Assembly (NCBI RefSeq): GCF_003586285.1
Contig: NZ_QUBR01000002.1
Coordinates: forward strand, 1,054,001 to 1,118,000
DNA length: 64,000 nucleotides
Source: Aeromicrobium endophyticum
GTDB lineage: Bacteria > Actinomycetota > Actinomycetes > Propionibacteriales > Nocardioidaceae
Direction of reading: 5' to 3'
The notes beneath the pieces are model-generated. The model saw only the letters and a list, made by a program, of their open reading frames with translations, ran no database searches and was not told where the DNA came from. Position numbers and translations under genes: made by a program. Of this stretch, positions 1 to 50,983 are shown piece after piece (positions within the stretch are counted from its first letter, which is position 1; each line of letters opens with the position of its first letter).

Positions 1-674
1 CCGAGGATGTCCTCCTCCTCGAGCGGCTGCTCGATGAGCAGCAGGTCGAAGGGGTCGAGCCGGGCCAGGTGACGCGCGTCGGCCAGCGTGTAGGCGGTGT
101 TCGCGTCGACCTGCAGCAGGACGTCGTCGCCGAAGCGCTCGCGCACCTCCCGCACCGGGTCGACGTCCCAGCCCGGCTCGATCTTCAGCTTGATGCGGAC
201 GTATCCCTCGTCGAGGTAGCCGCCGACGGCGTCCAGCAGGGCGGGGATGCTGTCCATGATGCCGACCGAGACGCCGCACGGCACCGTGTCGTGCACGGCG
301 CCCAGCTCTCGCGCGAACGACCGTCCCTCGACGCGCAGCTCGGCATCGAGCACGCCCATCTCGAGCGCGCCCTTGGCCATGCGATGCCCCTTGAAGCGCG
401 ACAGCGTGGTCGCGACCCGGGACGCGTCGACGTCTCCTCCTGCCGCCAGCGCGGGCACCAGGTAGCGGCGCAGCACGTCGGCGGCACCCTCGACGTACTC
501 CGACGAGTACACGGGGTCGGCCATCGTGACGCACTCGCCCCACCCCTCGGTGCCGTCGGCCGCGACGACGCGCAGCACCAGCAGGTCGCGCGTCGTCTGC
601 GTGCCGAACGAGGTCCGGAACGGGCTGACGAGCGGCATGGACACGTGCATCAGCTCGACACCGTGCAACTTCAT
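1..674 (-). CDS. N-succinylamino acid racemase / o-succinylbenzoate synthase family enzyme (partial, 3' end missing)
   Basis: Enolase-superfamily protein (muconate-lactonizing subgroup), cut by the window start after 224 residues. The KxK pair (K162, K164) and two metal ligands (D190 in QVDAN, E215 in IEQPL) of the OSBS/NSAR family are visible; the third ligand and the second catalytic lysine lie outside. Family members make o-succinylbenzoate for menaquinone, racemise N-succinylamino acids, or do both. The ATG overlaps the stop of the upstream GNAT gene (ATGA), and that gene follows an M20 hydrolase. This three-gene set is the one described for converting D- to L-amino acids through N-succinyl intermediates, so a racemase role is favoured over menaquinone synthesis, by inference from context. 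Confidence 0.85.
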   Translation of the reverse strand, partial: MKLHGVELMHVSMPLVSPFRTSFGTQTTRDLLVLRVVAADGTEGWGECVTMADPVYSSEYVEGAADVLRRYLVPALAAGGDVDASRVATTLSRFKGHRMAKGALEMGVLDAELRVEGRSFARELGAVHDTVPCGVSVGIMDSIPALLDAVGGYLDEGYVRIKLKIEPGWDVDPVREVRERFGDDVLLQVDANTAYTLADARHLARLDPFDLLLIEQPLEEEDIL

Positions 675-1567
675 GGGGTCCTCCGTACGACGTAGCCGGC
701 AGATCGGTCGAAGCTCGTGATGCGGGCCCCGTCGGCGAGCAGCTCCGACAGCGCGTCCCGCACGGTCGTCCGCCACCGATGGGCCAGGTCGGGGTCGGAC
801 GTCCGCAGCGCGCTGATGTCGTCGGGCACCGCGACCAGCGAGACGTCCGCGCCCATCCGACCCGGGACGGGTGATCCGTCGGACCCCATGCCGACGGCCG
901 TCACGGCTCCTGGCGGGACGGGCTCGGCAGTGCCGCTGGCGCCGGCGGAACAGGCACGCTCGACGGCCGGCGAGACCAGGTTCCAGCGCACCAGCAGACG
1001 GTCCGTGTCGTCGGCGCCGTTGATGAGGTCAACCATGGGGCCGTAGAAGTTGGGCAGGTACTCGACCGGACGCGCGGCCAGCTTGACCAGGTTGAAGTGC
1101 GCGTTGCGGCTGACGAGCGGGTCGAACGTCCAGGCCACGTCGGACACGTTGCGCTGCAGCGCCCACGCACGCTGGTGCAGCTTGACGGCGAAGCCCACGC
1201 TACGGCCCGTCATGGCGGGGTCGACGGCGGCGATGTGGCTGTGCATCGCATCGTCGGCCGGTGCATGGAAGAAGCCGACGCAGGCGCCGACCAGGCGTCC
1301 GTCGGGCACGAACGCGCCGCCGACGTAGTTGCCGGCCTTGGTCAGCGCCCTGAGCAGCTCGAGGGTCATGGGCGGGTTGTCGCTGCGACCCCACACCCGC
1401 ACGTAGAGGCGCAGCACCTGTTCGAGGTCGGCCAGCTCGGTGAGCTCGCGGACGACGACTCCGGACGCCGCGGCGGCGCTCTCGGCGTCGCGGACGGCGT
1501 CCAGCTGCGGGGGCAGCGCGGTATCGGTCACGACATCCATCCTGCGCGGATCCTCGGGCCCCGTCAT
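671..1567 (-). CDS. GNAT-superfamily acyltransferase, putative D-amino acid N-succinyltransferase
   Basis: A 298-residue protein resembling the COG3375-type GNAT proteins that often sit beside NSAR/OSBS enzymes. The N-terminal half has a GNAT-like core (V-R-E-L-T near residue 40, then the G-G-A-F-V and G-A-C-V-G-F strands); the C-terminal half is family-specific. In the known pathway such an enzyme moves the succinyl group from succinyl-CoA to a D-amino acid amine. Both ends overlap the neighbouring genes by four bases (ATGA), implying translational coupling with the M20 hydrolase upstream and the racemase downstream. The substrate is inferred from context only. Confidence 0.8.
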   Translation of the reverse strand: MTGPEDPRRMDVVTDTALPPQLDAVRDAESAAAASGVVVRELTELADLEQVLRLYVRVWGRSDNPPMTLELLRALTKAGNYVGGAFVPDGRLVGACVGFFHAPADDAMHSHIAAVDPAMTGRSVGFAVKLHQRAWALQRNVSDVAWTFDPLVSRNAHFNLVKLAARPVEYLPNFYGPMVDLINGADDTDRLLVRWNLVSPAVERACSAGASGTAEPVPPGAVTAVGMGSDGSPVPGRMGADVSLVAVPDDISALRTSDPDLAHRWRTTVRDALSELLADGARITSFDRSAGYVVRRTP

Positions 1568-2688
1568 GGTCGGACCGCACGACTCTGGAGGGCCTGGTTG
1601 GTCGAGGTCGCCAACACGTCGACGACGAGGGCACGCACCAGCGACAGGCGGGGCCCGAGGGCGTCGACGAGCACGTGCTCGTCGTCCGCGTGAGCGCCAC
1701 CGCCGACAGCACCGAGACCGTCGAGGGTCGGGGTCCCGACGCCGGCCGTGAAGTTGCCGTCGGACGCACCGCCGACCGCGACGGCCTCCGGACACGCCAG
1801 GCCGAGACGTTCGGCGATCGCCGCGACGCGCTCGAGCAGCTGGGTCGAGGTCCATGCCTCCATGGGCGGACGGTTGGGGCCGCCCGTCACGACGGACGAG
1901 GCGCCGTCGATGACCGGACGGAGCGACCGGATGGCCGCGTCGACCCGATCCTGCTCGGCCAGCGTCCGCACGCGCACGTCGACCGCGAAGGAGCCCTCGG
2001 ACGGCACCGTGTTGGTGGTCTGGCCCGACCGTGCCGTCGTCGGCGTGGACGTCGTGCCGGCGGTCGCGTCCGACAGGTCGGCGACCGCGAGGGCCAGGTG
2101 GGCCAGCTCCAGCGTCGCGTTGACGCCGCGCTCGGGCTCGAGGCCCGCGTGCGCCGCGCGTCCCTCGACGGCCACGTCGTAGAGCGACACGCCCTTGCGC
2201 TCGGACTTGAGCGCACCCCCGGGGGCAGCACCCTCCAGCACGAGGGCCGCGCCGACGGCACGCGCCTCGTCCTCGATCAGGGCCCGCGACGACGGTGAGC
2301 CGAGCTCTTCGTCGCCGGTCACCAGCACCGTGACGCCGTCGAGACCGGCCGCGGCCTGGAAGGCCATCGCGAGCCCGGTCTTCATGTCGAAGCACCCGGG
2401 ACCGCGCAGCACGCCGCCGTCGACCGAGAACGGGTGGCGCTTGAGCGACCCGATCGGCCACACGGTGTCGTGGTGACCGACCAGCAGCACGCCGGAGGAC
2501 TGGTCGCCCGTGCGCCACCGCAGGTGCGTCCGCCCGTCGATCACGATCCGCTCGGGCGCCGAGCCGAGCCACCGCTCCCCCACCCGGGCGACGACGTCGG
2601 CCGAGCGGGCGACCGCCGCGAGGTCGGACGACGGCGACTCGCACTCGATCATGTCGCGCGCGTCGGCGATCAAGGCGTCGAGGTCCAT
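1564..2688 (-). CDS. M20-family metallopeptidase, putative N-succinyl-L-amino acid desuccinylase
   Basis: A 374-residue zinc hydrolase of the ArgE/DapE/carboxypeptidase G2 type. Visible motifs are GHHDT (H72 or H73 as zinc ligand, D74), the bridging aspartate D101 in GPGCFDMKTG, and the catalytic glutamate pair E127-E128 in GDEELG, followed by the dimerisation domain. In the three-enzyme scheme it would remove succinate from the N-succinyl-L-amino acid, making D-to-L conversion irreversible. The ATG overlaps the stop of the S9-S12 fusion gene upstream (TGATG). A general aminoacylase or glutamate carboxypeptidase role is the alternative. Confidence 0.85.
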   Translation of the reverse strand: MDLDALIADARDMIECESPSSDLAAVARSADVVARVGERWLGSAPERIVIDGRTHLRWRTGDQSSGVLLVGHHDTVWPIGSLKRHPFSVDGGVLRGPGCFDMKTGLAMAFQAAAGLDGVTVLVTGDEELGSPSSRALIEDEARAVGAALVLEGAAPGGALKSERKGVSLYDVAVEGRAAHAGLEPERGVNATLELAHLALAVADLSDATAGTTSTPTTARSGQTTNTVPSEGSFAVDVRVRTLAEQDRVDAAIRSLRPVIDGASSVVTGGPNRPPMEAWTSTQLLERVAAIAERLGLACPEAVAVGGASDGNFTAGVGTPTLDGLGAVGGGAHADDEHVLVDALGPRLSLVRALVVDVLATSTNQALQSRAVRP

Positions 2689-5600
2689 CAGTCGACCTTG
2701 GGCGTCGCCCGGACGCCGAAGTGCAGGTAGCGCTCGCCGGTGGGCAGCTCGAAGAACGTCACCGGCGACCAGTTCTCGGCCTCCGGCGGCTTGGTGAGGA
2801 AGATGGTCGACGAGTACGGCACGAGGGCGTGCTCCTCGACGGGGTCGGGCAACAGCTCGGCGAGCGGCCCGACCAACGTCGTCCGCAGGCGCGGCTCCCC
2901 GTCCTCGACGAAGACGTCCATCAGCACCGACGACCGCTCGTAGCGCCCGACGTACGGCGCGATGTCGACGTCGACCGCCGGCTCGGGCGGAGCGATCGGT
3001 CGGGGCATCTCGACGTCGGCCAGCTCGGCGAAGATCTCGCGGTACAGGGCCTCGTACAGGTCGCGGCTGCCCTCGCCGTTGGTCAGCAGCGTGACCGCGA
3101 GGCCCGCCTCGGGCAGCACCCGCAGGAAGGCCGCCTGACCGATCGTGTTGCCGTCGTGCCCGTACACGCGCCGTCCGTCCCAGCCGAAGCGGATCCAGCC
3201 CAACCCCCACGAGTCGCCCAGCGAGTGCTGGTCGGGGAGGTCGACCTCGTGCGCCGGCATGGCCCCTGCCGACTCCTCGCTGAGGACACGCACGCCGTCG
3301 GCGCCCGTGCCGCCGGTCAGGTGCATGCGCGCGAACGACAGGACGTCGGCGGCGTTGGCCGTGACGAGTCCCGCCGGTCCGATCGACCGCGGCAGCTGCC
3401 AGACGGGGGCGACGCGTCGCTCACCCGCGTCCGTGACGTGGCCGACCGCGGCGGCGTGCAGCAGGGCGTCCTCGGGCAGGGTCACGGCGTGCTCCATGCC
3501 GAGCGGCGTGAACAGGCGGTCGCGCAGCGCCTGGTCCCACGTCGTGCCGGTGAGGCGCTCGATGACCAGGCCCAGCACCGAGAAGCCCGCGTTGCAGTAC
3601 GACCACGTGGCGCCCAGGGGGTGGTTCTGCGTCTGGTCGCCGAGCAGCCCGACGTACTTCTCCAAGCAGTCGTCGCCGCGGCCGGTGTCGGTGAAGACGT
3701 CGCCGTCGATGCCGCTGGTGTGGTTGAGCAGGTGGCGCAGGGTCACCCGCTTGGTGACGTCGGGATCGGACAGCCGCAGGTCGGGCACGATCTCGACGAC
3801 CGGGGTGTCGAGCTCGGTCAGCCCCTCGTCGATCAGCTGCATCACTACCGTCGCCGTCCAGACCTTGGTGATCGAGCCGATCTGGAAGATCGACTCGGCG
3901 GTCACGGGCGCGCCGGTGTCGATGCTGAGCACGCCGTGCGACGCGACGACGACCTCGTCGTCCTCGACCGCCCCGCCGTCGCCGAGCCGCAGGATGCCGA
4001 GCTGGGCCCCCGGCACGCCGTAGCGCTCGGCGAGCCGGTGCAGGCGGCGCTCCCAGTGGGCCGCGTCGATCGGCGCACGCCCCTCGCGCACGGTGTGCTG
4101 CTCGACCCAGTCGACGACCCGGCGGCCGTAGTCGATGCGCTGCGACGGCGGGCCGGCCAGGATGAAGACGTGCGAGGCGTCCGGGTAGAGGACCAGCTCG
4201 GTCGGCACGCCGCGCGACCGCAGGGCGCTGTGCCACTGCTGCGCCTGGCCGACGGGGCAGGTCAGGTCGGACAGGCCGTGCAGGACGAGGGTCGGCGTGG
4301 TGACGTCGGTGACCGTGGTCAGCGGCGACATCGCGGCGTACTGCTCAGGCTCGTCCCAGGGCGCGCCGCCGAGCTCGAACGAGCTGAGGCACACCCCGTC
4401 GTCGGCGGTGCCGTACATGCTCACCATGTCGCTGACGATGCCGCCGGCCACGCCGGCCTTGAAGCGCTGGTCGTGCCCCGTCAGCCAGGCCGTCATGAAG
4501 CCGCCGTAGCTGTAGCCCGTGACCGCGAGCCGGTCGGGATCGGCGATGCCGTCGGCGACCAGCGCGTCGATCGGCTCGAGGAAGTCGCCGGCGTCGGCCA
4601 CGCCCCAGGCGCCGTTGACGCCGTCGAAGAACGCCTCGCCGTAGCCGTCGCTGCCGCGCGGGTTGACCAGCAGCACCGCCCAGCCCCGCGACACGAGCTC
4701 CTGGTGATAGAAGTGCATCTCGTCGGCCGCGCCGTTCCAGGCGTTGTGCGGCCCGCCGTGCACGTCGAGCAGCAGCGGCCGCGGGCCCTGACGCTCGGGG
4801 TCGCGCAGCAGCCAGCCCTGCACCTCGGTGCCGTCCGAGATCGTGAACGTCCGGCTCTCGGGACGGAACAGCTCGACGTCCGCCACGCTCGAGCCGTGGT
4901 CGGTCAGCACCGACTCCGTCCCGGTCGTCAGGTCGAGCGCGACGATCTCGCCGTACGAGGTCGCGGTCGTCAGCGCCACGACAGCCGTCGAGCCCACGAC
5001 CGACAGGCCCGACACGACCCGGTCCTCGCCGGCCAGCAGCGGCAGGCCCTCCGGGGTGGACGGGTCGTCGAGCGCCCACAGGTGCGTGCACCCGCGGTCG
5101 CGGACGCAGAACAGCAGGCGACCCTGGCCGTCGCGCTGCGGGCGACCTCCGGGGTACGCCGCGGCGCCGGGCATGACGTTGCGGTCGAGGTGGCCCGTGA
5201 GGGTGACCGTCTCGCCGCCGGCCAGCGGCACGCGCTGCAGGTGCTGGTGGCCCACGGGATCGCCGGGGTGCCCCACGACGAGCAGGTGCTCGCCGTCGGC
5301 GTCGAGCACGACCGTGCCGGCCACGCCGTCGGCCGAGCCGACCAGCCGGGGGCGGCTCTTCGGGTCGTCGACGTCCAGCAGGTGCACCGCGGCGCGGAGC
5401 GTCAGGTCGCTGTCGTCGCCGACCCGGCGGGTGAAGGCGATGGTCCTGCCGTCGGGTGCCCAGACCGGCTGTCCGGCGTGGTCACGTCCGTCCGTCACCT
5501 GGCGGCAGGCTCCCGACGCGAGGTCGACGACGTGCACCTGGTTGCGCACGCTGCCGAACATCCCGACGCCGTCGGTCTGGTAGTCGAGCCGCGTCGCCAC

Positions 5601-5996
5601 GAGCGGCCCGGTGCCGTCCGTCGGGTCGACCGGGGCCGTGAGCGCCAGGCGGCTGCCGTCGGGACTCCACACCGGCGTGCCCGCACCGCGCGGGAGGTCG
5701 GTCAGCCGCTGCGGCTCCCCGCCGTCCCGGACGACCACGTGCACCTGTCCGTCCCGCAGGAACGCCAGGCGCGCCCCGTCGGGCGACCACGTCGGTGCCG
5801 AGTCGTGCGGGCCCGACGTCAGACGTCGAGCGGCGCCGCCCGCGACGGGGACGGACCACAGCTCGTCGTGGCTGCGGTCGTGCTCGGTGTCGAGGGTGCG
5901 CAGGACGTACACCACCTGGGTGCCGTCGGGTGACAGCGCCGGCTGCGACGGCACCGCCAGGCGGGTCAGGTCGTCCAGCTGCATGCGTCGGGTCAT
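2688..5996 (-). CDS. Fused prolyl-oligopeptidase (S9) - class C beta-lactamase-like hydrolase (S12)
   Basis: One uninterrupted frame of 1102 residues. Residues 1-380 form a beta-propeller with repeated WSPDG motifs. Residues 390-635 are an alpha/beta-hydrolase with the S9 triad: S496 (GYSYGG), D577 (HGLSD), H609 (DASH). Residues about 645-970 are a serine beta-lactamase/D-aminopeptidase-like domain with S708-x-x-K711 (SITK), Y800-C-N802 and H947-D-G, followed by a beta-barrel-like tail. No signal peptide is evident, so it should act on imported peptides in the cytoplasm. The S12 part resembles the separate S12 protein at the operon start (same FQIGSITK and DDCLEKYV blocks). The start ATG overlaps the transporter ATPase stop (ATGA). 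Confidence 0.93.
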   Translation of the reverse strand: MTRRMQLDDLTRLAVPSQPALSPDGTQVVYVLRTLDTEHDRSHDELWSVPVAGGAARRLTSGPHDSAPTWSPDGARLAFLRDGQVHVVVRDGGEPQRLTDLPRGAGTPVWSPDGSRLALTAPVDPTDGTGPLVATRLDYQTDGVGMFGSVRNQVHVVDLASGACRQVTDGRDHAGQPVWAPDGRTIAFTRRVGDDSDLTLRAAVHLLDVDDPKSRPRLVGSADGVAGTVVLDADGEHLLVVGHPGDPVGHQHLQRVPLAGGETVTLTGHLDRNVMPGAAAYPGGRPQRDGQGRLLFCVRDRGCTHLWALDDPSTPEGLPLLAGEDRVVSGLSVVGSTAVVALTTATSYGEIVALDLTTGTESVLTDHGSSVADVELFRPESRTFTISDGTEVQGWLLRDPERQGPRPLLLDVHGGPHNAWNGAADEMHFYHQELVSRGWAVLLVNPRGSDGYGEAFFDGVNGAWGVADAGDFLEPIDALVADGIADPDRLAVTGYSYGGFMTAWLTGHDQRFKAGVAGGIVSDMVSMYGTADDGVCLSSFELGGAPWDEPEQYAAMSPLTTVTDVTTPTLVLHGLSDLTCPVGQAQQWHSALRSRGVPTELVLYPDASHVFILAGPPSQRIDYGRRVVDWVEQHTVREGRAPIDAAHWERRLHRLAERYGVPGAQLGILRLGDGGAVEDDEVVVASHGVLSIDTGAPVTAESIFQIGSITKVWTATVVMQLIDEGLTELDTPVVEIVPDLRLSDPDVTKRVTLRHLLNHTSGIDGDVFTDTGRGDDCLEKYVGLLGDQTQNHPLGATWSYCNAGFSVLGLVIERLTGTTWDQALRDRLFTPLGMEHAVTLPEDALLHAAAVGHVTDAGERRVAPVWQLPRSIGPAGLVTANAADVLSFARMHLTGGTGADGVRVLSEESAGAMPAHEVDLPDQHSLGDSWGLGWIRFGWDGRRVYGHDGNTIGQAAFLRVLPEAGLAVTLLTNGEGSRDLYEALYREIFAELADVEMPRPIAPPEPAVDVDIAPYVGRYERSSVLMDVFVEDGEPRLRTTLVGPLAELLPDPVEEHALVPYSSTIFLTKPPEAENWSPVTFFELPTGERYLHFGVRATPKVD

Positions 5997-6739
5997 CGGG
6001 GACTCCTTCGTCGGGTGGTGCCGGGGACGGCGGCCAGGAGGTCGCGCGTGTAGTCGTGGGAGGGGGTCGCGAGCACCTGGGCCGTGGGGCCCTGCTCGAC
6101 GATGCGACCGCGGTGCATGACGGCGACGTCGGAGGCGACGTACCGGACGACCGCGAGGTTGTGCGAGATGAACAGGATCGACAGGCCGAGCTCGGCCTGC
6201 AGCTCCCGCACGAGGTTGAGCACCGTGCCCTGGATCGACACGTCGAGCGCGGACGTGATCTCGTCCGCGACGACGACGGCCGGCTGGGCCGCGAGGGCCC
6301 GAGCCAGGGCGACGCGCTGCCGCTGCCCGCCCGACATCTCGGACGGTCGGGCGTCCGCGCGGGCCGAGCCGATGTGCACCAGGTCGAGCAGCCGGGCCAC
6401 CTCGGCGCGGCGCGCTGCCCGCCGGACGTCCCGCGGGATCGGCTCGGCCACGCTCTCGCCGATGCTCATGCGGGGGTCGAGCGACGAGAACGGGTCCTGG
6501 AAGACCATCTGGACCGGACGCCGGTGCCCTCGCAGCGGGACGGGCTCGCCGTCGAGCAGGATGCGACCACTCTCGACCGGGGCCAGACCGACGGCGGCGC
6601 GTGCCATCGTCGACTTGCCCGAGCCTGACTCGCCCACCAGGCCGACGATCCGCCCGGTCGGCACGACCAGGCTCACGTCGTCGACCGCCGTGGTGGCGCC
6701 GTAACGAACCGTCAGGTCCTCGAAGCGCAGCTCGCTCAT
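5993..6739 (-). CDS. Oligopeptide/dipeptide ABC transporter ATP-binding protein (DppF/OppF type)
   Basis: A 248-residue ABC ATPase that powers peptide import. Walker A GESGSGKST is at 36-44, the Q-loop near 81, the signature SGGQRQR at 136-142, Walker B VVVADE at 155-160 and the H-loop in SHNLAVV. It lacks the C-terminal oligopeptide-binding extension (the cysteine cluster) seen in DppD, which fits the shorter F subunit. Both ends overlap neighbours by four bases. It should pair with the ATPase half of the upstream fusion protein. Confidence 0.92.
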   Translation of the reverse strand: MSELRFEDLTVRYGATTAVDDVSLVVPTGRIVGLVGESGSGKSTMARAAVGLAPVESGRILLDGEPVPLRGHRRPVQMVFQDPFSSLDPRMSIGESVAEPIPRDVRRAARRAEVARLLDLVHIGSARADARPSEMSGGQRQRVALARALAAQPAVVVADEITSALDVSIQGTVLNLVRELQAELGLSILFISHNLAVVRYVASDVAVMHRGRIVEQGPTAQVLATPSHDYTRDLLAAVPGTTRRRSPR

Positions 6740-8676
6740 GGCACGTCCGTCCTGGTCGTCGAGAGCTGCATCGGCTCGATGGGCTCGCCGGCGTGCCAGC
6801 ACGCGACCCGTCCGCGCTCGTCGCCGGCCAGGGGCGGGTCCTCGACACGGCAGCGTTCCGTCGCGAGGGGGCAGCGGGCCGCGTACGCGCAGCCGGGCGG
6901 CACGTCGGCGGGGTCGACGGGGCGCCCGGGGATGACCGCCAGCGGCTCGTCGAGCGCGGTGTCCATCGACGGCACGGCAGCCACGAGCGCCTGCGTGTAC
7001 GGGTGACGTCCTGCGGTGGCCAGGTCGGCGGCCGGCAGGTCCTCGACGATGCGTCCGGCGTACATCACCAGCACCCGGTCGCAGACCTCCCCCACCACCG
7101 TGACGTCATGGCTGATCAGCACCAGGGCCACGTCGTCCTCGCGGCGGATCGCGGCGAGCAGGTCGAGCACCTGCTGCTGCACGGTGACGTCGAGGGCGGT
7201 GGTCGGCTCGTCGGCGATGATCAGCGACGGGCTGCCCATGATGCCCATGCCGATCATCGCCCGCTGGCGCATGCCGCCCGAGAACTCGTGCGGGTACTGC
7301 CGCGCTCGGCGCTCCGGTGCGGGGATGCGCACGGCACCGAGACGGTCGACGGCTCGCGCCATGGCCTGCTTGCGGTCGAGACCGTGGTGGTGGCGCGAGA
7401 CCTCGGCCAGCTGGCCGCCGATGCGACGCGTCGGGTTGAACGACGTCATGGGGTCCTGGAAGACCATCGCCATCGAGGTGCCGAGCATCTTGCGCCGGGC
7501 GGCGGTGTCGGACGTCAGGAGGTCCTCGCCGAGGAAGCGCAGCCGCTCGGCATCGACCTGTCCCAGGTCGTCGACGAGCTGCGACACCGCCAGGGCGGTC
7601 AGCGACTTGCCCGACCCCGACTCCCCGACGATGCCGACGGCCTCGCCCCGGCGCACGGCGAACGTCACGCCGCGCACGACCTGCACCGGCCCGTCCGCGC
7701 CCGGGAAGGCCACCTCGAGGTCGCGCACGTCGAGCACCACGTCGTCCGTGCCGCCGACGGGCGCCTCGGTCGCGGGCCCCGCGTGGTCCGTGCTGCGGCG
7801 GGGGGCCACGACCGTCCGAGGCGCGAGGGCGGTGCCCTGCGTCGGGACGCCCACGGCCTTGGCGATCGACTCGCCGAACAGGTTGAAGCTCAGGCCCGTC
7901 ACGAGCACCGCGAGCCCGGGCACCAGGGCGGCACCGGGGTTGACGTACAGGGCGGACACCCCGTCGAACAGCAGCCGTCCCCAGTCGTAGGCCGGTGCCT
8001 GCACGCCGAGGCCGAGGAACGACAGCCCGGCGAAGGCCAGCAGCGCTCCTCCCGCGCCGATCGTCGCGTTCACGACGAGGGGCTCGGCGACGTTGGGCAG
8101 CACGTGGCGCACCAGGATGCGGAAGCGCCCCACACCGGCGGTGCGGGCCGCCGCGACGTAGTCGAGGGACACGACGCCTGCCACCATCGTCTGCACCAGG
8201 CGCGCGAACGAGGGTGCGCCGGCCAGCCCGATCGCCAGCACCGCGCCGGTCGCACCGATGCCGAAGACGACGGCGAAGAACAGCGCGAGCAGCAGCCCCG
8301 GGAAGGCGACGGCGATGTTGATGCTCGCCGTCACGAGCCGTCCCGCCCGTCGTCCGAGCAGCTGGGGCGCCACGCCGAGCACCAGCCCGACGACGACGGC
8401 GATGAGCGTCGCGCTGAGGGCGAGCTCGATCGACAGGCGCGTGGCCACGAGCGTCCGGAACACGATGTCGCGGCCCAGGTTGTCGGTGCCCGCCCAGTGC
8501 TCGGCGCTCGGCCCGGCCAGGATGTCGTCGGTGTCGACCGCCTTGGCCGAGTCGGTCCACAGGATCGGTGCGACGACCGCGAGCACGAGCACCGTGATCG
8601 CGAGCAGCGCGGTGACGACGCCCAGCGGCGTGCGCAGCGCGGAGAGGTGGCGACGGCGTGACGGAGTACCTGTCAT
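6736..8676 (-). CDS. Fused peptide ABC transporter permease (DppC) and ATPase (DppD)
   Basis: A 646-residue protein joining two subunits that are usually separate. Residues 1-275 are a DppC-like permease: an N-terminal membrane helix, the GTDNLGRD block, five more helices and the EAA coupling loop (about 176-195). A proline/alanine-rich linker of about 40 residues leads to an ATPase (313-646) with Walker A GESGSGKS at 351-358, signature SGGMRQRAM, Walker B LIIADEP and the DppD-type C-terminal cysteine cluster (CAYAARCPLATERC). No frame break is seen at the junction. It should form one heterodimer with the DppB permease and the downstream ATPase. Confidence 0.92.
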   Translation of the reverse strand: MTGTPSRRRHLSALRTPLGVVTALLAITVLVLAVVAPILWTDSAKAVDTDDILAGPSAEHWAGTDNLGRDIVFRTLVATRLSIELALSATLIAVVVGLVLGVAPQLLGRRAGRLVTASINIAVAFPGLLLALFFAVVFGIGATGAVLAIGLAGAPSFARLVQTMVAGVVSLDYVAAARTAGVGRFRILVRHVLPNVAEPLVVNATIGAGGALLAFAGLSFLGLGVQAPAYDWGRLLFDGVSALYVNPGAALVPGLAVLVTGLSFNLFGESIAKAVGVPTQGTALAPRTVVAPRRSTDHAGPATEAPVGGTDDVVLDVRDLEVAFPGADGPVQVVRGVTFAVRRGEAVGIVGESGSGKSLTALAVSQLVDDLGQVDAERLRFLGEDLLTSDTAARRKMLGTSMAMVFQDPMTSFNPTRRIGGQLAEVSRHHHGLDRKQAMARAVDRLGAVRIPAPERRARQYPHEFSGGMRQRAMIGMGIMGSPSLIIADEPTTALDVTVQQQVLDLLAAIRREDDVALVLISHDVTVVGEVCDRVLVMYAGRIVEDLPAADLATAGRHPYTQALVAAVPSMDTALDEPLAVIPGRPVDPADVPPGCAYAARCPLATERCRVEDPPLAGDERGRVACWHAGEPIEPMQLSTTRTDVP

Positions 8677-8679
8677 GGC

Positions 8680-9684
8680 TCAGTCCTCCAGGATCATCGA
8701 GCGCGGATCGAGAAGGGCCAGGCTGACGTCGACGATCGAGTTGATCACCAGCACCCCGAGGCCGTACATCAGGATGATCGCCTGGACCACGGGATAGTCC
8801 TTGTTGAGGATCGACGACGTGATCGTGCTGCCGAGGCCCGGCCACGCGAAGACGTTCTCGACCAGCACGGTCCCGGCCACCATGCCGGTGAGCAGCAGTC
8901 CCGACAGGGTCAGGGCCGCGGTGAGCGCGTTCGGCAGCGCGTGGCCCAGGTACACGCGGGCGGACGGCAGCCTCTTGGCGCGGGCGGTGCGGACGAAGTC
9001 GGCCTGCAGCACCGCCACCATCTCGACGCGGATGACGCGGGCCAGGATCGCGGCGGGGCCGATCGCGAGGCAGGCCACCGGGAGGACGTACGCAGCGGCC
9101 GAGGAGTTCCCGGCGACCGGCAGCAGGTCGAGCTGGACCCCGAACACGTAGACCAGGGCGACGCCCAGCATGAAGTCGGGGATCGTGCCCAGCACGACGC
9201 TGGTGGTCGTGAAGCCGAGCTCGGTGCGACGGCCGTGGCCGCGCCTGGTCAGCACCCCGGCGGCGACACCCGCCGGCACGGCGATGAGGACCGCGAGCAG
9301 GAATCCGAGCAGCGCGAGCCACAACGTCGCCGGGAGCCGTTGGGAGATGATCTCGGAGGTGGGCACCTGCGAGATCAGCGAGGTGCCGAAGTCTCCGGTG
9401 AGCAGCCCCTTCAGGTAGTGCAGGTACTGCTGCCACAGCGGGTCGTCGAGGCCGAGGCTGGCGCGGCGCGCCGCGACGACCTCGGCCGAGGCGGTGCGAC
9501 CGAGGGCGCCGCGCACGGGATCGCCCGGGATCAGGTGGATCATCAGGAACGCCGCCGTCACCAGCACCCACAGCGACACCAGCAGACGACCCGCGCGCCG
9601 TGCTCCGAACCGCACCCAGGGGTTGGCGGTCCACGCCCCGCGGGTGCGCGTCGGGGCGGCCCGGAGGGCCTCGGTCGTCGCCAT
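8680..9684 (-). CDS. Peptide ABC transporter permease (DppB type)
   Basis: A 334-residue integral membrane protein with six predicted helices. It shows the family's early block IPGDPVRGALG (about residues 51-61), the long periplasmic loop with GDFGTSL, the EAA loop (DFVRTARAKRLPSARVYLGH) and the C-terminal LLDPRS. It forms the translocation pore with the DppC half of the downstream fusion protein, whose start codon lies three bases beyond this stop. The start ATG lies three bases after the binding-protein gene. Confidence 0.92.
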   Translation of the reverse strand: MATTEALRAAPTRTRGAWTANPWVRFGARRAGRLLVSLWVLVTAAFLMIHLIPGDPVRGALGRTASAEVVAARRASLGLDDPLWQQYLHYLKGLLTGDFGTSLISQVPTSEIISQRLPATLWLALLGFLLAVLIAVPAGVAAGVLTRRGHGRRTELGFTTTSVVLGTIPDFMLGVALVYVFGVQLDLLPVAGNSSAAAYVLPVACLAIGPAAILARVIRVEMVAVLQADFVRTARAKRLPSARVYLGHALPNALTAALTLSGLLLTGMVAGTVLVENVFAWPGLGSTITSSILNKDYPVVQAIILMYGLGVLVINSIVDVSLALLDPRSMILED

Positions 9685-9687
9685 CGG

Positions 9688-11226
9688 TCAGTTCGCCAGC
9701 ATCCGGATGCTGGTGGGCACCATCTGGCCCGGGTACTCGAACGTGGCACCCGCCCGGTACGCCTTGCCGACGCTGTTGGCGAAGGGGATGACGTCGGCGT
9801 CCTTCACGAGCGCGGACTCGGCCTCGAGCCACGTCGCGCAGCCCTCCTGGCCCGTCATCGTGGTGGCCTTGGCCACGCCGGCCTCGTACGCGTCGTTCGA
9901 GATCTCGGCGAAGTTGGTGCCGTCGGGCGCGGGCGGACCCGACAGGAACGGGACGATCTGGTCGGGGCTGCTGACGTTGAACGCCAGCCACGCGATGTCC
10001 CAGTTCTTGGTCCCGAAGATCGTCTCGTCGATCGCGGTGCTGCTCTGGCTCTTCGCGGTGACCTTCAGACCGGCGGCCTTCCACTGCTCGACCGCGAGCT
10101 CGACCGCGGCACTGATGCCACCGCCGCCGGCGCCGCTGTAGATCATCGTCATCTCGGGAAGGCCTGACAGCACCTTCTTCGCGGCCGCGACGTCCTGCTT
10201 CGGCATCGCGTCGGTCACCGAGTCGCCCTTGCACGCCACGGGGTCGAGGGCCGCGAACGTGGTGGGAGGAGTTCCCTTGCCCGCCGTGAGCACCTTGCGC
10301 AGCTTGTCGAAGTCGAGCGCCTGGGTGAGGGCCAGACGGACCTTCGGGTCGGCCGTCGCGCGGCCCGGCGTCTGGTTGTACCACTGCTCACCGGCCACGG
10401 CCCCGGTGTCCGACGTCGTCAGCCCCGCCTTGTCGAGCCGCTTCTGGTCGGAACCGATGACCAGCGCTCCGTTGAGCTCCTTCGACAGCAGCAGGTTGGC
10501 GGCGGTCGACTCGTTCTCGATGATCTTCATGACGATCGTGTCGGGCATGCCCTTCGTCGCGGTGGTCGCGCCGCCCGGGCCCCACGTGTAGCCGTCCCGG
10601 ATGGCGTAGGTGTACTGGTTGCCGGGTGCGGCCGCCGTCAGCTCGTAGGGCCCGGTGCCGCTGCTGGTCTTGGCCAGCGAGGCGCGGTCCTTGAGTCCCT
10701 TGCCGCAGATGATCGGGACGCTGGCCAGCCCCTCCATCACGAACGGGGCCGGCTCCGCGAGGGTGATCGTCACGGTGCGTGAGGCGTCGTCGGCCTTCGT
10801 CGTGGCTCCGGCCGGCAGGAACGTGCCCAGCATCTGGTTCTCGTTCTTCGGGTCGGAGATGTAGTCGAGGTTGGCCGCCACGTCGGACGCGGTCAGCGTC
10901 GAGCCGTCGGAGCACGTGATCCCCTCGCCGATGGTCGCGGTGACGGTCGTGCCGTCGACCGTCCACTTCGAGGCGATGCCCGAGACGATCGAGCCGTCCT
11001 TGGGGTCGATGTTGACCAGGCGGTCGTAGGCCAGCTGGCTGATGCTGAACAGCGAGCTCGACACCGACGACTGCGGGTCGAGGTTGCCCGGGTCGGTGCT
11101 CAGCGCCATGCTGAACGTCCCGCCGTCGACGACCTTGGCGTCGCCCGACGACGATCCACCTCCCCCGCAGGCCGAGAGGGCGGCGGCCGTGAGGCCCAGG
11201 CTGAGTGCAGCTGCGAGACGCTTCAT
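9688..11226 (-). CDS. Peptide-binding lipoprotein of the ABC transporter (SBP family 5)
   Basis: A 512-residue extracytoplasmic solute-binding protein of the DppA/OppA class. It has a lipoprotein signal peptide (M-K-R, hydrophobic core, lipobox LSAC with lipidated C20) followed by a Gly/Ser-rich tether. The mature part has family features such as the LAYDRLVNIDP segment and the central DFDKLRK region. A weak ribosome site (AGGA) precedes the ATG. It supplies substrate to the permeases encoded next. Substrate specificity cannot be read from sequence; the downstream hydrolases suggest peptides, possibly with D-residues. Confidence 0.92.
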   Translation of the reverse strand: MKRLAAALSLGLTAAALSACGGGGSSSGDAKVVDGGTFSMALSTDPGNLDPQSSVSSSLFSISQLAYDRLVNIDPKDGSIVSGIASKWTVDGTTVTATIGEGITCSDGSTLTASDVAANLDYISDPKNENQMLGTFLPAGATTKADDASRTVTITLAEPAPFVMEGLASVPIICGKGLKDRASLAKTSSGTGPYELTAAAPGNQYTYAIRDGYTWGPGGATTATKGMPDTIVMKIIENESTAANLLLSKELNGALVIGSDQKRLDKAGLTTSDTGAVAGEQWYNQTPGRATADPKVRLALTQALDFDKLRKVLTAGKGTPPTTFAALDPVACKGDSVTDAMPKQDVAAAKKVLSGLPEMTMIYSGAGGGGISAAVELAVEQWKAAGLKVTAKSQSSTAIDETIFGTKNWDIAWLAFNVSSPDQIVPFLSGPPAPDGTNFAEISNDAYEAGVAKATTMTGQEGCATWLEAESALVKDADVIPFANSVGKAYRAGATFEYPGQMVPTSIRMLAN

Positions 11227-11247
11227 CGAAGATCCTGTCTGGCCGGT

Positions 11248-12624
11248 TCAGGCGCGCCGGATGGCACGGCCGATAAAGAGGTACTGGGCGTTGCCGTGCT
11301 GGTCCTCACCGAGGAACGTGTGGGGAAGGTGCATGCCGCGGTCGGCCTTCAGGGGGATGAGGCTGTCGTGGCCGAAGGCGACGAGCTCCAGCCGCTCGGG
11401 CTCCTCGCCCATGTCGGCGAACATCCCCTTCATGACGAGGTCGACCCAGATGCGTCCGTCGTCCTCCTGGCTGACGACCAGGTCCATGACGTCGGCCGAG
11501 TAGGTGCCCACGTAGCGCGAGGCGTCGATGCGCTCGGGGTCCGACGGTGGGACGGGCAGCTCGGGCAGGCTCGTGGCGGTCAGCTCGTCGATGACCCGGC
11601 CGACCACGTCGTAGTAGAGCGACATGACGTCGCCGCCGTTGGTCAGCAGGGCGACCGCGAGGCCGGTGCCCGGCACCATCCGCAGGAAGGCGTTCTGGCC
11701 GATGGTGCTGCCGTCGTGGCCGATGATGTCGCCTGCGTCGACGTCGAAGCGCTCGAAGCCGAGGCCCCACGACGTCCCCATGATGCCGGTGTACGGCACC
11801 CCGACCGCCCGGGCCTGCATCGCGGCCGCGGTGCCCGGCGCCAGCACCTGCGTGCCGTCGGACGCCTCGCCGTCCGCGAGCTGCATCTGCGCGAACGCGA
11901 GCAGGTCGCGGGGCCGCATCGAAAGCATCGAGCCGGCCGGGGCGTTCGACCGTGCCATCGCCCAGACAGGAGCGGGCTCGTAACCCGAGGCGCCCTCGAC
12001 GTGCCCCATGGCCGCGCGGAACGTGATCGCCTCGTAGGGCGAGGTCGCGGTGTGGGTGAGGCCGAGCGGCGCGATGACGTGCTCGCGCAGCGCGACGTCG
12101 AACGGCTTGTCGCGCAGCACCTCGACCAGGCGCCCCAGCACGCAGAAGCCTGCGTTGTTGTACGAGAACTGCTCGCCCGGCGTGAACAGCTGCGGCACGT
12201 CGGCCAGCAGTGCCACGTACTTCTCGAGGCAGTCGTCACCGACACCGGTGTCGGTGAAGATGTCGCCCTCGAAGCCAGCGGTGTGGTTCAGCAGCTGCCG
12301 GGTCGTGATGACCGCCGCGGCCGACTCGTCGGCGATGCGGAACTCGGGCAGGTAGGTGCGGACCGGCTCGTCCAGGTCGACCAGGCCCTCGTCGACCAGC
12401 TGCATCACGAGGGTGCTGGTCCACAGCTTGGTGATCGACCCGATCTGGAACACCGAGTCAGGCGTCGCCTCGACGCCCGTGGACAGGTTCAGCAGTCCGG
12501 CGGCACCGTCGACGACCTCCCCGTCGTGGAGCACCGCCCAGGCGGCCCCCGGCACGCCGTGCTTGCTCAGGAGGTCGGGCAGCTCGCGATCGAGCCAGGT
12601 CTTGGTCGAGATGAGTTTGCTCAC
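11248..12624 (-). CDS. Serine beta-lactamase-like hydrolase (S12), putative D-aminopeptidase/esterase
   Basis: First gene of the peptide operon, 458 residues. It carries S63-x-x-K66 (SITK), Y154-N-N156 and an HDGST motif in place of KTG, plus a C-terminal barrel domain. No signal peptide is present, so it is probably cytoplasmic rather than a beta-lactamase or cell-wall carboxypeptidase. It is a paralogue of the S12 half of the S9-S12 fusion. The start is GTG: a TACGTT hexamer ends six bases before it and no well-placed ribosome site exists, so a leaderless mRNA is likely. D-aminopeptidase, alkaline D-peptidase and esterase are all possible within the family. Confidence 0.88.
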   Translation of the reverse strand: MSKLISTKTWLDRELPDLLSKHGVPGAAWAVLHDGEVVDGAAGLLNLSTGVEATPDSVFQIGSITKLWTSTLVMQLVDEGLVDLDEPVRTYLPEFRIADESAAAVITTRQLLNHTAGFEGDIFTDTGVGDDCLEKYVALLADVPQLFTPGEQFSYNNAGFCVLGRLVEVLRDKPFDVALREHVIAPLGLTHTATSPYEAITFRAAMGHVEGASGYEPAPVWAMARSNAPAGSMLSMRPRDLLAFAQMQLADGEASDGTQVLAPGTAAAMQARAVGVPYTGIMGTSWGLGFERFDVDAGDIIGHDGSTIGQNAFLRMVPGTGLAVALLTNGGDVMSLYYDVVGRVIDELTATSLPELPVPPSDPERIDASRYVGTYSADVMDLVVSQEDDGRIWVDLVMKGMFADMGEEPERLELVAFGHDSLIPLKADRGMHLPHTFLGEDQHGNAQYLFIGRAIRRA

Positions 12625-12777: not shown

Positions 12778-12850
12778 CTCCCCCACTTGGACTCGAACCA
12801 AGAACCCTCCGATTAACAGTCGAATGCTCTGCCAATTGAGCTATGGGGGA
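12778..12850 (-). tRNA. tRNA-Asn (GTT)
   Basis: A 73-base cloverleaf with a 7-bp acceptor stem (TCCCCCA / TGGGGGA), D-arm AGCTCAATTGGCAGAGC, anticodon loop CTGTTAA giving anticodon GTT, T-loop TTCGAGT and discriminator G. The 3' CCA is not encoded. It starts eight bases after the sigma-factor gene and is followed by a strong hairpin. Confidence 0.97.
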
Positions 12851-50770: not shown

Positions 50771-50846
50771 TGGTAGCCCCGACGGGATTCGAACCCGCGC
50801 TACCGCCTTGAGAGGGCGACGTGCTAGGCCGCTACACAACGGGGCC
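50771..50846 (-). tRNA. tRNA-Glu (CTC)
   Basis: A 76-base gene including the encoded 3' CCA. Anticodon stem TCGCC/GGCGG with loop CTCTCAA gives anticodon CTC; the T-arm is GCGGGTTCGAATCCCGT. The G1-T72 wobble is usual for actinobacterial tRNA-Glu. It lies downstream of tRNA-Gln and gltX on the same strand. Confidence 0.96.
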
Positions 50847-50911: not shown

Positions 50912-50983
50912 CTGGGATACTAGGACTCGAACCTAGAATGGCGGTACCAGAAACCGCTGTGTTGCCAATTACACCATATCCCA
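50912..50983 (-). tRNA. tRNA-Gln (CTG)
   Basis: A 72-base cloverleaf: acceptor TGGGATA / TATCCCA, anticodon loop TTCTGGT giving CTG, T-arm CTAGGTTCGAGTCCTAG, discriminator G. CCA is not encoded, unlike the neighbouring tRNA-Glu. In actinobacteria this tRNA is normally charged with Glu by GltX and then amidated by GatCAB. Confidence 0.96.

Follow-up and report, generated by a model that had tools for sequence, protein, structure and literature searches.

A conserved actinobacterial operon with a probable role in the salvage of peptides that contain D-residues

Introduction

What does a bacterium gain by keeping a peptide importer, beta-lactamase-like hydrolases and a set of amino acid-inverting enzymes side by side? 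The question is raised by a stretch of 64,000 nucleotides from the genome of Aeromicrobium endophyticum (positions 1,054,001 to 1,118,000 of contig NZ_QUBR01000002.1, assembly GCF_003586285.1), to which we refer as the window. At its left end lies a minus-strand series of genes for hydrolases of the S12, S9 and M20 families, an ABC importer of the Dpp/Opp type, an acyltransferase of the GNAT fold and an enolase of the NSAR/OSBS family (N-succinylamino acid racemase/o-succinylbenzoate synthase). D-residues shield peptides from most peptidases, and a preliminary description of the window proposed that these genes serve together to import D-residue peptides, cleave them inside the cell and recycle the D-residues. 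Having read the whole operon and followed it through other genomes, we consider it likely that it is a salvage pathway for heterochiral (D-residue-containing) peptides, which would proceed by import, cytoplasmic cleavage and D-to-L conversion.

Results

Layout of the operon

The window was joined to the 10 kb on its left in the same genome in order to read the whole operon. Ten minus-strand genes follow one another: a stand-alone S12 hydrolase (S12a), a solute-binding protein (SBP), permease B, a fused permease C-ATPase D (PermC-D), ATPase F, a fusion of an S9 peptidase with a second S12 hydrolase (S9-S12b), M20, GNAT, NSAR and a PucR-type regulator (Table 1). Gaps of 21, 3 and 3 bases separate S12a from the SBP, the SBP from permease B and permease B from PermC-D. 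Downstream of these the genes overlap, by 4 bases at PermC-D/ATPase F, ATPase F/S9-S12b, M20/GNAT and GNAT/NSAR and by a single base at S9-S12b/M20, and they are presumably co-transcribed. Where plotted, the named genes have the third-position GC (GC3) periodicity of coding sequence, in addition to their translations and Pfam matches.

Translations and Pfam matches bear out the minus-strand series given in the preliminary description, and the overlaps of 1-4 bases that it reported between S9-S12, M20, GNAT and NSAR were measured as 1, 4 and 4. The series stands within the window, but not its end at base 1: the NSAR gene crosses the left edge by 435 bases (L005:9565-10000), leaving only its first part within the window, and the regulator follows 23 bases after it, provided that its ATG start is correct.

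The same unit recurs in many genomes

We searched 293 genomes of the order for the GNAT (E 1e-10) and found it in 100 of them, at 127 places. Sixty GNAT-centred loci were chosen by hand from these places, mostly among the better-scoring ones and excluding the window's own. A second sample consists of 80 named NSAR-centred loci with flanks of up to 10 kb; they were the top scorers among at least 588 relatives, which biases the sample to close relatives of the NSAR. Functions were counted by tblastn at an identity of 38% or more and on one strand, so that weaker GNATs count as missing. A home-made gene caller, which misses or merges overlapping genes, served solely for spotting recurrent extra genes.

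All six functions (transporter, S12, S9, M20, GNAT and NSAR) lie on one strand in 31 of the 60 GNAT-centred loci, with S9 alone missing in 3 more, and 26 of the 60 keep the window's exact module series in order on the GNAT strand. The NSAR-centred sample has all six on one strand in 36 of its 80 loci, which belong to 15 named genera, among them Nocardioides, Streptomyces, Amycolatopsis, Microbacterium, Lentzea, Actinomadura, Kribbella and Arthrobacter, and to one metagenome-assembled genome; only 13 of the 80 have a detected S12a on the same strand as NSAR. GNAT and NSAR occur together in most loci examined. The six functions whose joint occurrence the preliminary description had put forward for a search of genomes therefore recur as a unit, and since the same set returns in order in many genomes, the arrangement is not one of chance.

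The S9-S12 fusion was searched for in the same 293 genomes, scoring the two best candidates per genome (E 1e-100 or better). This yielded 42 full fusions in 41 genomes. Distances were taken between 56 of the 106 matches of this search (the other 50 cover the S12 domain only) and the best 77 of the 127 GNAT matches: a relay GNAT lies within 10 kb of all 42 fusions, and within 3 kb of 41 of them. The corresponding figures within 10 kb are 5 of 9 for S9-only matches and, for S12-only matches, 3 of the 5 compared.

Eight of the 80 NSAR-centred loci are from Amycolatopsis. The relay genes come first in seven of these, followed by S12a and the importer genes; the eighth stretch ends shortly after NSAR. 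The NSAR of one Amycolatopsis locus (L127) scores 673 bits against the N-acylamino acid racemase structure 1sja, which we take to be an Amycolatopsis enzyme. The genome of the window itself holds a second, diverged set (L044; G000:C1:1784351-1804109), 38-62% identical to the first, with M20, PucR, SBP, permeases, ATPases, an S9-S12b fusion, GNAT and NSAR and with no S12a on that strand. That the unit is conserved, occurs in rearranged form and is found twice in one genome speaks for a single pathway. By eye, the next two open reading frames of L044 resemble a GMC-type oxidoreductase and an aldehyde dehydrogenase.

Import and the question of cell-wall fragments

By its domains the importer is complete: Pfam finds one SBP_bac_5, two BPD_transp_1 and two ABC_tran. 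An attempt to name the transported substrate failed, as the NCBIfam matches listed, among them nickel, glutathione and oligopeptide models, all fall under their cut-offs; for permease B the best is Opp2B, at 270 bits against a cut-off of 350. The nearest solved relative of the SBP is 6lu2 (125 bits), named just 'substrate binding protein'.

Peptidoglycan recycling of the kind carried out by the Bacillus subtilis dpp-ykf locus, with the importer taking up muropeptides shed from cell walls and the hydrolases removing D-Ala or D-Glu, seems to us an unlikely function. Pab87, a relative of the S12 proteins in fold, removes D-Ala from muropeptides and has been proposed to process cell debris (PMC2651629), and two murein-peptide-binding SBPs are found among the 12 solved matches of the operon SBP, at a weak 42-44 bits. 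Against this, Pfam detects no M55 DppA, NlpC/P60, LD-carboxypeptidase or dipeptide epimerase among the ten operon genes, and the enolase scores 632 bits to NSAR versus 116 bits to L-Ala-D/L-Glu epimerase. D-Ala and D-Glu, moreover, have racemases of their own and would not need an N-succinyl relay. The cell-wall fragments that the preliminary description gave as an example thus stay on the list as one candidate among several, but they are not the best fit: peptides with neutral aliphatic or aromatic D-residues suit the substrate range of the relay better.

The S12 and S9 hydrolases

S12a carries the motifs SxxK (63-66), YxN (155-157) and HxG (303-305), followed by a beta-rich second domain at its C-terminus. 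In the fusion, an S9 oligopeptidase (propeller and catalytic domain) takes up residues 1-~640, with the motifs GYSYGG, GLSDL and DASH, and a second S12 hydrolase residues ~641-1102, with GSITK, SYCN and GHDG. With the meanings customarily assigned to these motifs, the catalytic residues are intact in S9 and in both S12 domains. S12a and S12b are 42% identical. A hydropathy scan found no strongly hydrophobic N-terminus on the S12 domains or on the S9 domain, in agreement with the absence of signal peptides reported earlier for the S12 proteins.

The model of S12a (predicted local distance difference test, pLDDT, 95.3) was compared with solved structures. Near-whole matches were obtained with the esterase IS11 (Z 47.8, root-mean-square deviation (rmsd) 2.9, 439 residues), the cyclases SurE (Z 40.6, rmsd 3.4, 427 residues) and Ulm16 (Z 39.9, rmsd 2.7, 395 residues), with 6ksu and 8fek matched almost from end to end, and the DL-peptidase Lip3 (Z 39.3, rmsd 4.5, 423 residues). 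Pab87 (Z 41.0, rmsd 2.5, 334 residues) matches over the catalytic domain, model residues 3-357. Over this domain, Z values of 36-37 are also reached by class C beta-lactamases, D-amino acid amidase, alkaline D-peptidase, LACTB and EstG, so that on its own it does not reveal the function. By fold match, the S12 domain organisation is that of the penicillin-binding protein-type cyclases, a catalytic domain with a lipocalin-like domain. We have moderate confidence that S12a and S12b are D-residue peptidases.

Three further features of the S12 proteins are recorded here. An acidic loop of the form GDxFTDTGRGDD (S12a ~120-131 and its equivalent in S12b) is found, by a loose pattern, in 35 of 39 aligned sequences; it is present in part in IS11 and not in SurE, and might bind the peptide N-terminus. 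The D-pocket glycine of SurE, G235, has an apparent counterpart, G231, that is invariant in the 39 sequences; as a glycine at this position is common across S12 proteins, and IS11 has it too, we do not count it as evidence. Membership of the CubicO group was considered and rejected: the SxxK, YxN and HxG motifs shared with CubicO are present in both S12 domains, but YAEAF/L and FFYLN are absent from S12a and S12b, and ERY occurs solely near the C-terminus of S12b.

Might the hydrolases instead scavenge L- or N-blocked peptides in general, leaving the relay to handle only incidental D-residues or N-acyl amino acids? The nearest solved relatives of the S9 domain, an S9 family peptidase and acyl-peptide hydrolases, would suit such a role, as would the esterase IS11 as closest S12 structure, and GNAT-NSAR pairs do exist without the peptide module. 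We nevertheless think it improbable, because all 42 S9-S12 fusions lie near a relay and the S12 protein, not the L-type S9 peptidase, is the steadier hydrolase among importer-bearing loci. There, S12 is present and S9 undetected in 3 of 37 GNAT-centred and 8 of 47 NSAR-centred loci (two of the eight, L112 and L114, break off ahead of the place expected for S9); the reverse, an S9 with no S12, is seen in 0 of 37 and 1 of 47.

The relay enzymes and a separate MenC

In 2006 Sakai et al. reportedly described a three-step, irreversible conversion of D- to L-amino acids by M20, GNAT and NSAR enzymes of Geobacillus kaustophilus. The NSAR, GNAT and M20 genes of the operon are adjacent, as in a relay of this type, and the grouping recurs in other loci.

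We propose, from its sequence, that the operon enolase racemises N-succinylamino acids. Its nearest solved relative is the racemase 1sja, at 632 bits. K162, K164, D190, E215, D240 and K264 are invariant in an alignment of 21 sequences and correspond to the KxK pair, the three acidic metal ligands and the opposite lysine of such enolases. R267, in the motif KPGRVGG, is likewise invariant in the 21; it aligns with Amycolatopsis R266 of 1sja, the arginine that Truong et al. 2021 are said to have linked to racemase specificity.

A profile search with the GNAT at E 0.01 returned no solved structure related to it in sequence; its fold is shown by the model (pLDDT 93), in which residues 35-203 form a GNAT domain that matches N-alpha-acetyltransferases at Z up to 16.3. 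The VIA-align list for the GNAT names no D-amino acid N-succinyltransferase, an absence from a list that excludes nothing. A GNAT-related enzyme is stated to make N-succinyl derivatives of aromatic D-amino acids (PMC8762209, citing Sakai 2006). The M20 protein has metal-ligand-like motifs (HHD, DMK, DEE and GGGAH), and its nearest solved relative is carboxypeptidase G2. By analogy with the relay, the GNAT is proposed to be a D-selective succinyltransferase and the M20 enzyme an L-selective desuccinylase.

That the enolase should chiefly be an o-succinylbenzoate synthase for menaquinone, with unrelated neighbours, is very hard to credit in spite of its above-cut-off match to TIGR01928, which bears the name o-succinylbenzoate synthase, and of several solved relatives that carry both names, given that another contig carries a dedicated MenC (456 bits, cut-off 288) next to menD, that this MenC has a proline in place of the racemase-linked arginine of the operon enzyme, and that GNAT and NSAR stand together in most loci. 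The NSAR is thus not the sole menC of the cell, and the objection raised in the preliminary description, that the enolase might act only as an o-succinylbenzoate synthase in a genome with no other menC, does not apply.

Recurrent extra genes and other features

Of the 140 loci, 21 hold relatives of an amidohydrolase for which three tested examples match NCBIfam NF006560 at 627-674 bits; in ten of the 21 (L112, L114, L118, L121, L126, L127, L129, L132, L136 and L138) the gene stands immediately upstream of M20. The library name of NF006560 is merely 'amidohydrolase family protein'; we take it to be a type linked to D-amino acid deacylation, D-aminoacylase-like. These amidohydrolases fit D-residue peptides as the substrate.

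Other variants were noted. L088, L098 and L100 lack the importer and combine GNAT and NSAR with an NF006560-type amidohydrolase and a relative of S9; they are perhaps another way to feed D-residues to the relay. In L091 and L093 a GNAT relative has a divergent PucR gene as its neighbour, the stretch also encodes an NF006560-type amidohydrolase, and no NSAR was found there; a different use of the acyltransferase is possible. A class A beta-lactamase-like protein (PF13354; L129:14306-15199) has relatives in 15 of the 140 loci, in several of them between S12a and the SBP; the others are L112, L114, L121, L126, L127, L130, L136, L147, L071, L081, L086, L166, L168 and L183.

Three tRNA genes, one of them upstream of the operon, are the only Rfam matches in the window at or above the gathering score; no other RNA element reaches it there.

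Table 1. Genes of the operon, in order of transcription, and other features named in the text
Feature	Position	Strand	Support
S12a, stand-alone S12 (Beta-lactamase family) hydrolase, 458 aa, GTG start	11248..12624	-	PF00144 225 bits
SBP, family 5 solute-binding protein, LSAC lipobox-like sequence	9688..11226	-	PF00496 137 bits
Dpp/Opp-type ABC permease (B subunit)	8680..9684	-	PF00528, PF19300
PermC-D, fused Dpp/Opp-type permease (C)-ATPase (D), 646 aa	6736..8676	-	PF00528 94-275, PF00005 335-493, PF08352 544-609
Second Dpp/Opp-type ATPase (F subunit), short	5993..6739	-	PF00005 106 bits
S9-S12b fusion, 1102 aa	2688..5996	-	PF00326 163 bits, PF00144 207 bits
M20 metallohydrolase, proposed N-succinyl-L-amino acid hydrolase	1564..2688	-	PF01546, PF07687
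GNAT-fold acyltransferase, proposed succinyl-CoA:D-amino acid N-succinyltransferase	671..1567	-	PF13480 27.7 bits, cut-off 22
NSAR/OSBS-family enolase, proposed N-succinylamino acid racemase	1..674 in window; whole gene L005:9565-10674	-	TIGR01928 306 bits
PucR-type helix-turn-helix (HTH) regulator	L005:7901-9541, wholly left of window	-	Pfam
Dedicated actinobacterial MenC	G000:C1:492268-493200, beside menD, other contig		456 bits, cut-off 288
tRNA gene	12778-12850		Rfam
tRNA gene	50774-50846		Rfam
tRNA gene	50912-50983		Rfam

Discussion

The pathway that we propose would begin with the uptake of short peptides by the SBP-dependent Dpp/Opp-type ABC transporter. In the cytoplasm, the S12 pair would cut at D-residues, the likely targets being D-L bonds whose D-residue serves as acyl donor, a proposal drawn from fold relatives such as SurE and Lip3; the fused S9 domain would take off L-residues or acyl-blocked ends. 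The GNAT would then N-succinylate the freed D-amino acids, NSAR would racemise the products, and M20 would hydrolyse them to L-amino acid and succinate. Hydrolysis of the succinyl amide would make the D-to-L conversion irreversible, at a cost of one succinyl-CoA. The PucR-type regulator probably senses a substrate. The D-peptide pathway of the preliminary description is strengthened by the recurrence of the unit, the separate menC, the S12 folds and the amidohydrolases that fit it, whereas its D-specificity and the identity of the peptides are what we infer.

Several observations weigh against this salvage pathway. The importer is missing in 23 of the 60 GNAT-centred and 33 of the 80 NSAR-centred loci, some of which are cut by contig ends, and the operon is patchy within the window's own genus, where the search lists just three genomes with a match to the GNAT, against at least 20 that have none. 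We also took 20 distant GNAT loci from phylum-wide matches, 18 from other classes and 2 from the window's own: NSAR lies within ~2.5 kb of the GNAT in 19 of the 20 and permeases in none; the relay can therefore do without the importer. The SBP ligand cannot be read from sequence. The catalytic-domain fold of S12a cannot tell D from L, since class C beta-lactamases, LACTB and EstG match it at Z 36-37; the closest solved S12 relative by both sequence and fold is IS11, which is called a thermophilic esterase; and the nearest solved relatives of S9 and M20 are not named D-specific. Two of the distant loci, L228 and L229, have S12 relatives, and L228 an S9 relative as well, mostly on the opposite strand. 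We infer that GNAT and NSAR together form the older core, to which the peptide module was added later in part of the Actinomycetes.

A narrower form of the salvage pathway would be an actinobacterial system devoted to the use of non-ribosomal peptides as food, with the S12 enzymes as hydrolytic counterparts of the SurE-type ring-closing cyclases. S12 would open or cut the peptides at D-L bonds, S9 would digest the L-parts and the relay would convert freed residues such as D-Leu, D-Val and D-Phe to L-amino acids. We offer this tentatively, as possible rather than probable. If true, the Amycolatopsis N-acylamino acid racemase, a model enzyme for promiscuity, would have its physiological role in the use of non-ribosomal peptides.

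NSAR/OSBS enzymes have long been studied as a case of catalytic promiscuity, and salvage of heterochiral peptides would give them a physiological setting. It would also show how soil actinobacteria use D-residue peptides as food; the conserved route might predict strains that degrade peptide antibiotics or lipopeptides, and its S12, S9 and GNAT enzymes form a set of candidates for the cleavage of D-L bonds. As all 42 fusions are linked to the relay, the hypothesis is directly testable.

Comparison with known systems

Searches of the open-licence literature aimed at the relay or at the complete set turned up no account of these genes as a single pathway, which cannot prove its absence from print. 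The parts have precedents. Like the relay of Sakai et al. 2006, the operon has the three enzyme families as adjacent genes, with the racemase lysines and metal ligands kept and the GNAT fold present. The unit published by those authors reportedly comprises the three enzymes; here, in contrast, the relay is the downstream half of an operon with an importer, two S12 proteins, an S9 domain and a regulator.

The dpp-ykf genes of Bacillus subtilis link a dipeptide importer to a D-aminopeptidase (M55) and to an L-Ala-D/L-Glu epimerase of the enolase superfamily. The enolase here is instead an NSAR, and dpp-ykf has no GNAT/M20 succinyl relay. We rejected assignment to the dpp-ykf type, as there is no M55 D-aminopeptidase or L-Ala-D/L-Glu epimerase among the ten operon genes.

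Pab87 of Pyrococcus abyssi is D-stereospecific and is encoded near a D-aminoacylase and a dipeptide ABC transporter (PMC2651629). It thus resembles the operon in combining an S12 peptidase that has an extra C-terminal domain with a dipeptide ABC transporter nearby. The text consulted names no NSAR relay for its locus, the structural match covers the catalytic domain, and both operon S12 proteins lack two of the three CubicO motifs.

SurE and Ulm16 pair a catalytic domain with a lipocalin-like one and couple a D-residue at the C-terminus to an L-residue at the N-terminus; SurE requires a D-residue at the C-terminus and prefers neutral, aliphatic and aromatic ones (PMC11735501, PMC9491159). The likeness lies in a stand-alone S12 protein with these two domains, matched over nearly the whole S12a model. 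Both cyclases close rings in the biosynthesis of non-ribosomal peptides, whereas the operon S12 proteins stand beside an importer and should hydrolyse; Pfam finds no non-ribosomal peptide synthetase among the ten operon genes, genes further out not being annotated.

Lip3 of Paenibacillus cleaves DL-amide bonds, and its substrate is a lipopeptide, as stated in a commentary (PMC13188892). Its structure (9sn1) shares the S12 fold across the whole S12a model at Z 39.3; it differs in its solved chain of 663 residues and its identity of 24%. We know of no relay associated with Lip3. The relay, and the idea of peptide importers beside D-peptidases, are already known; their conserved combination, its spread among actinobacteria and its presence in Amycolatopsis appear to be new, having come up in none of the searches of the open-licence literature aimed at them.

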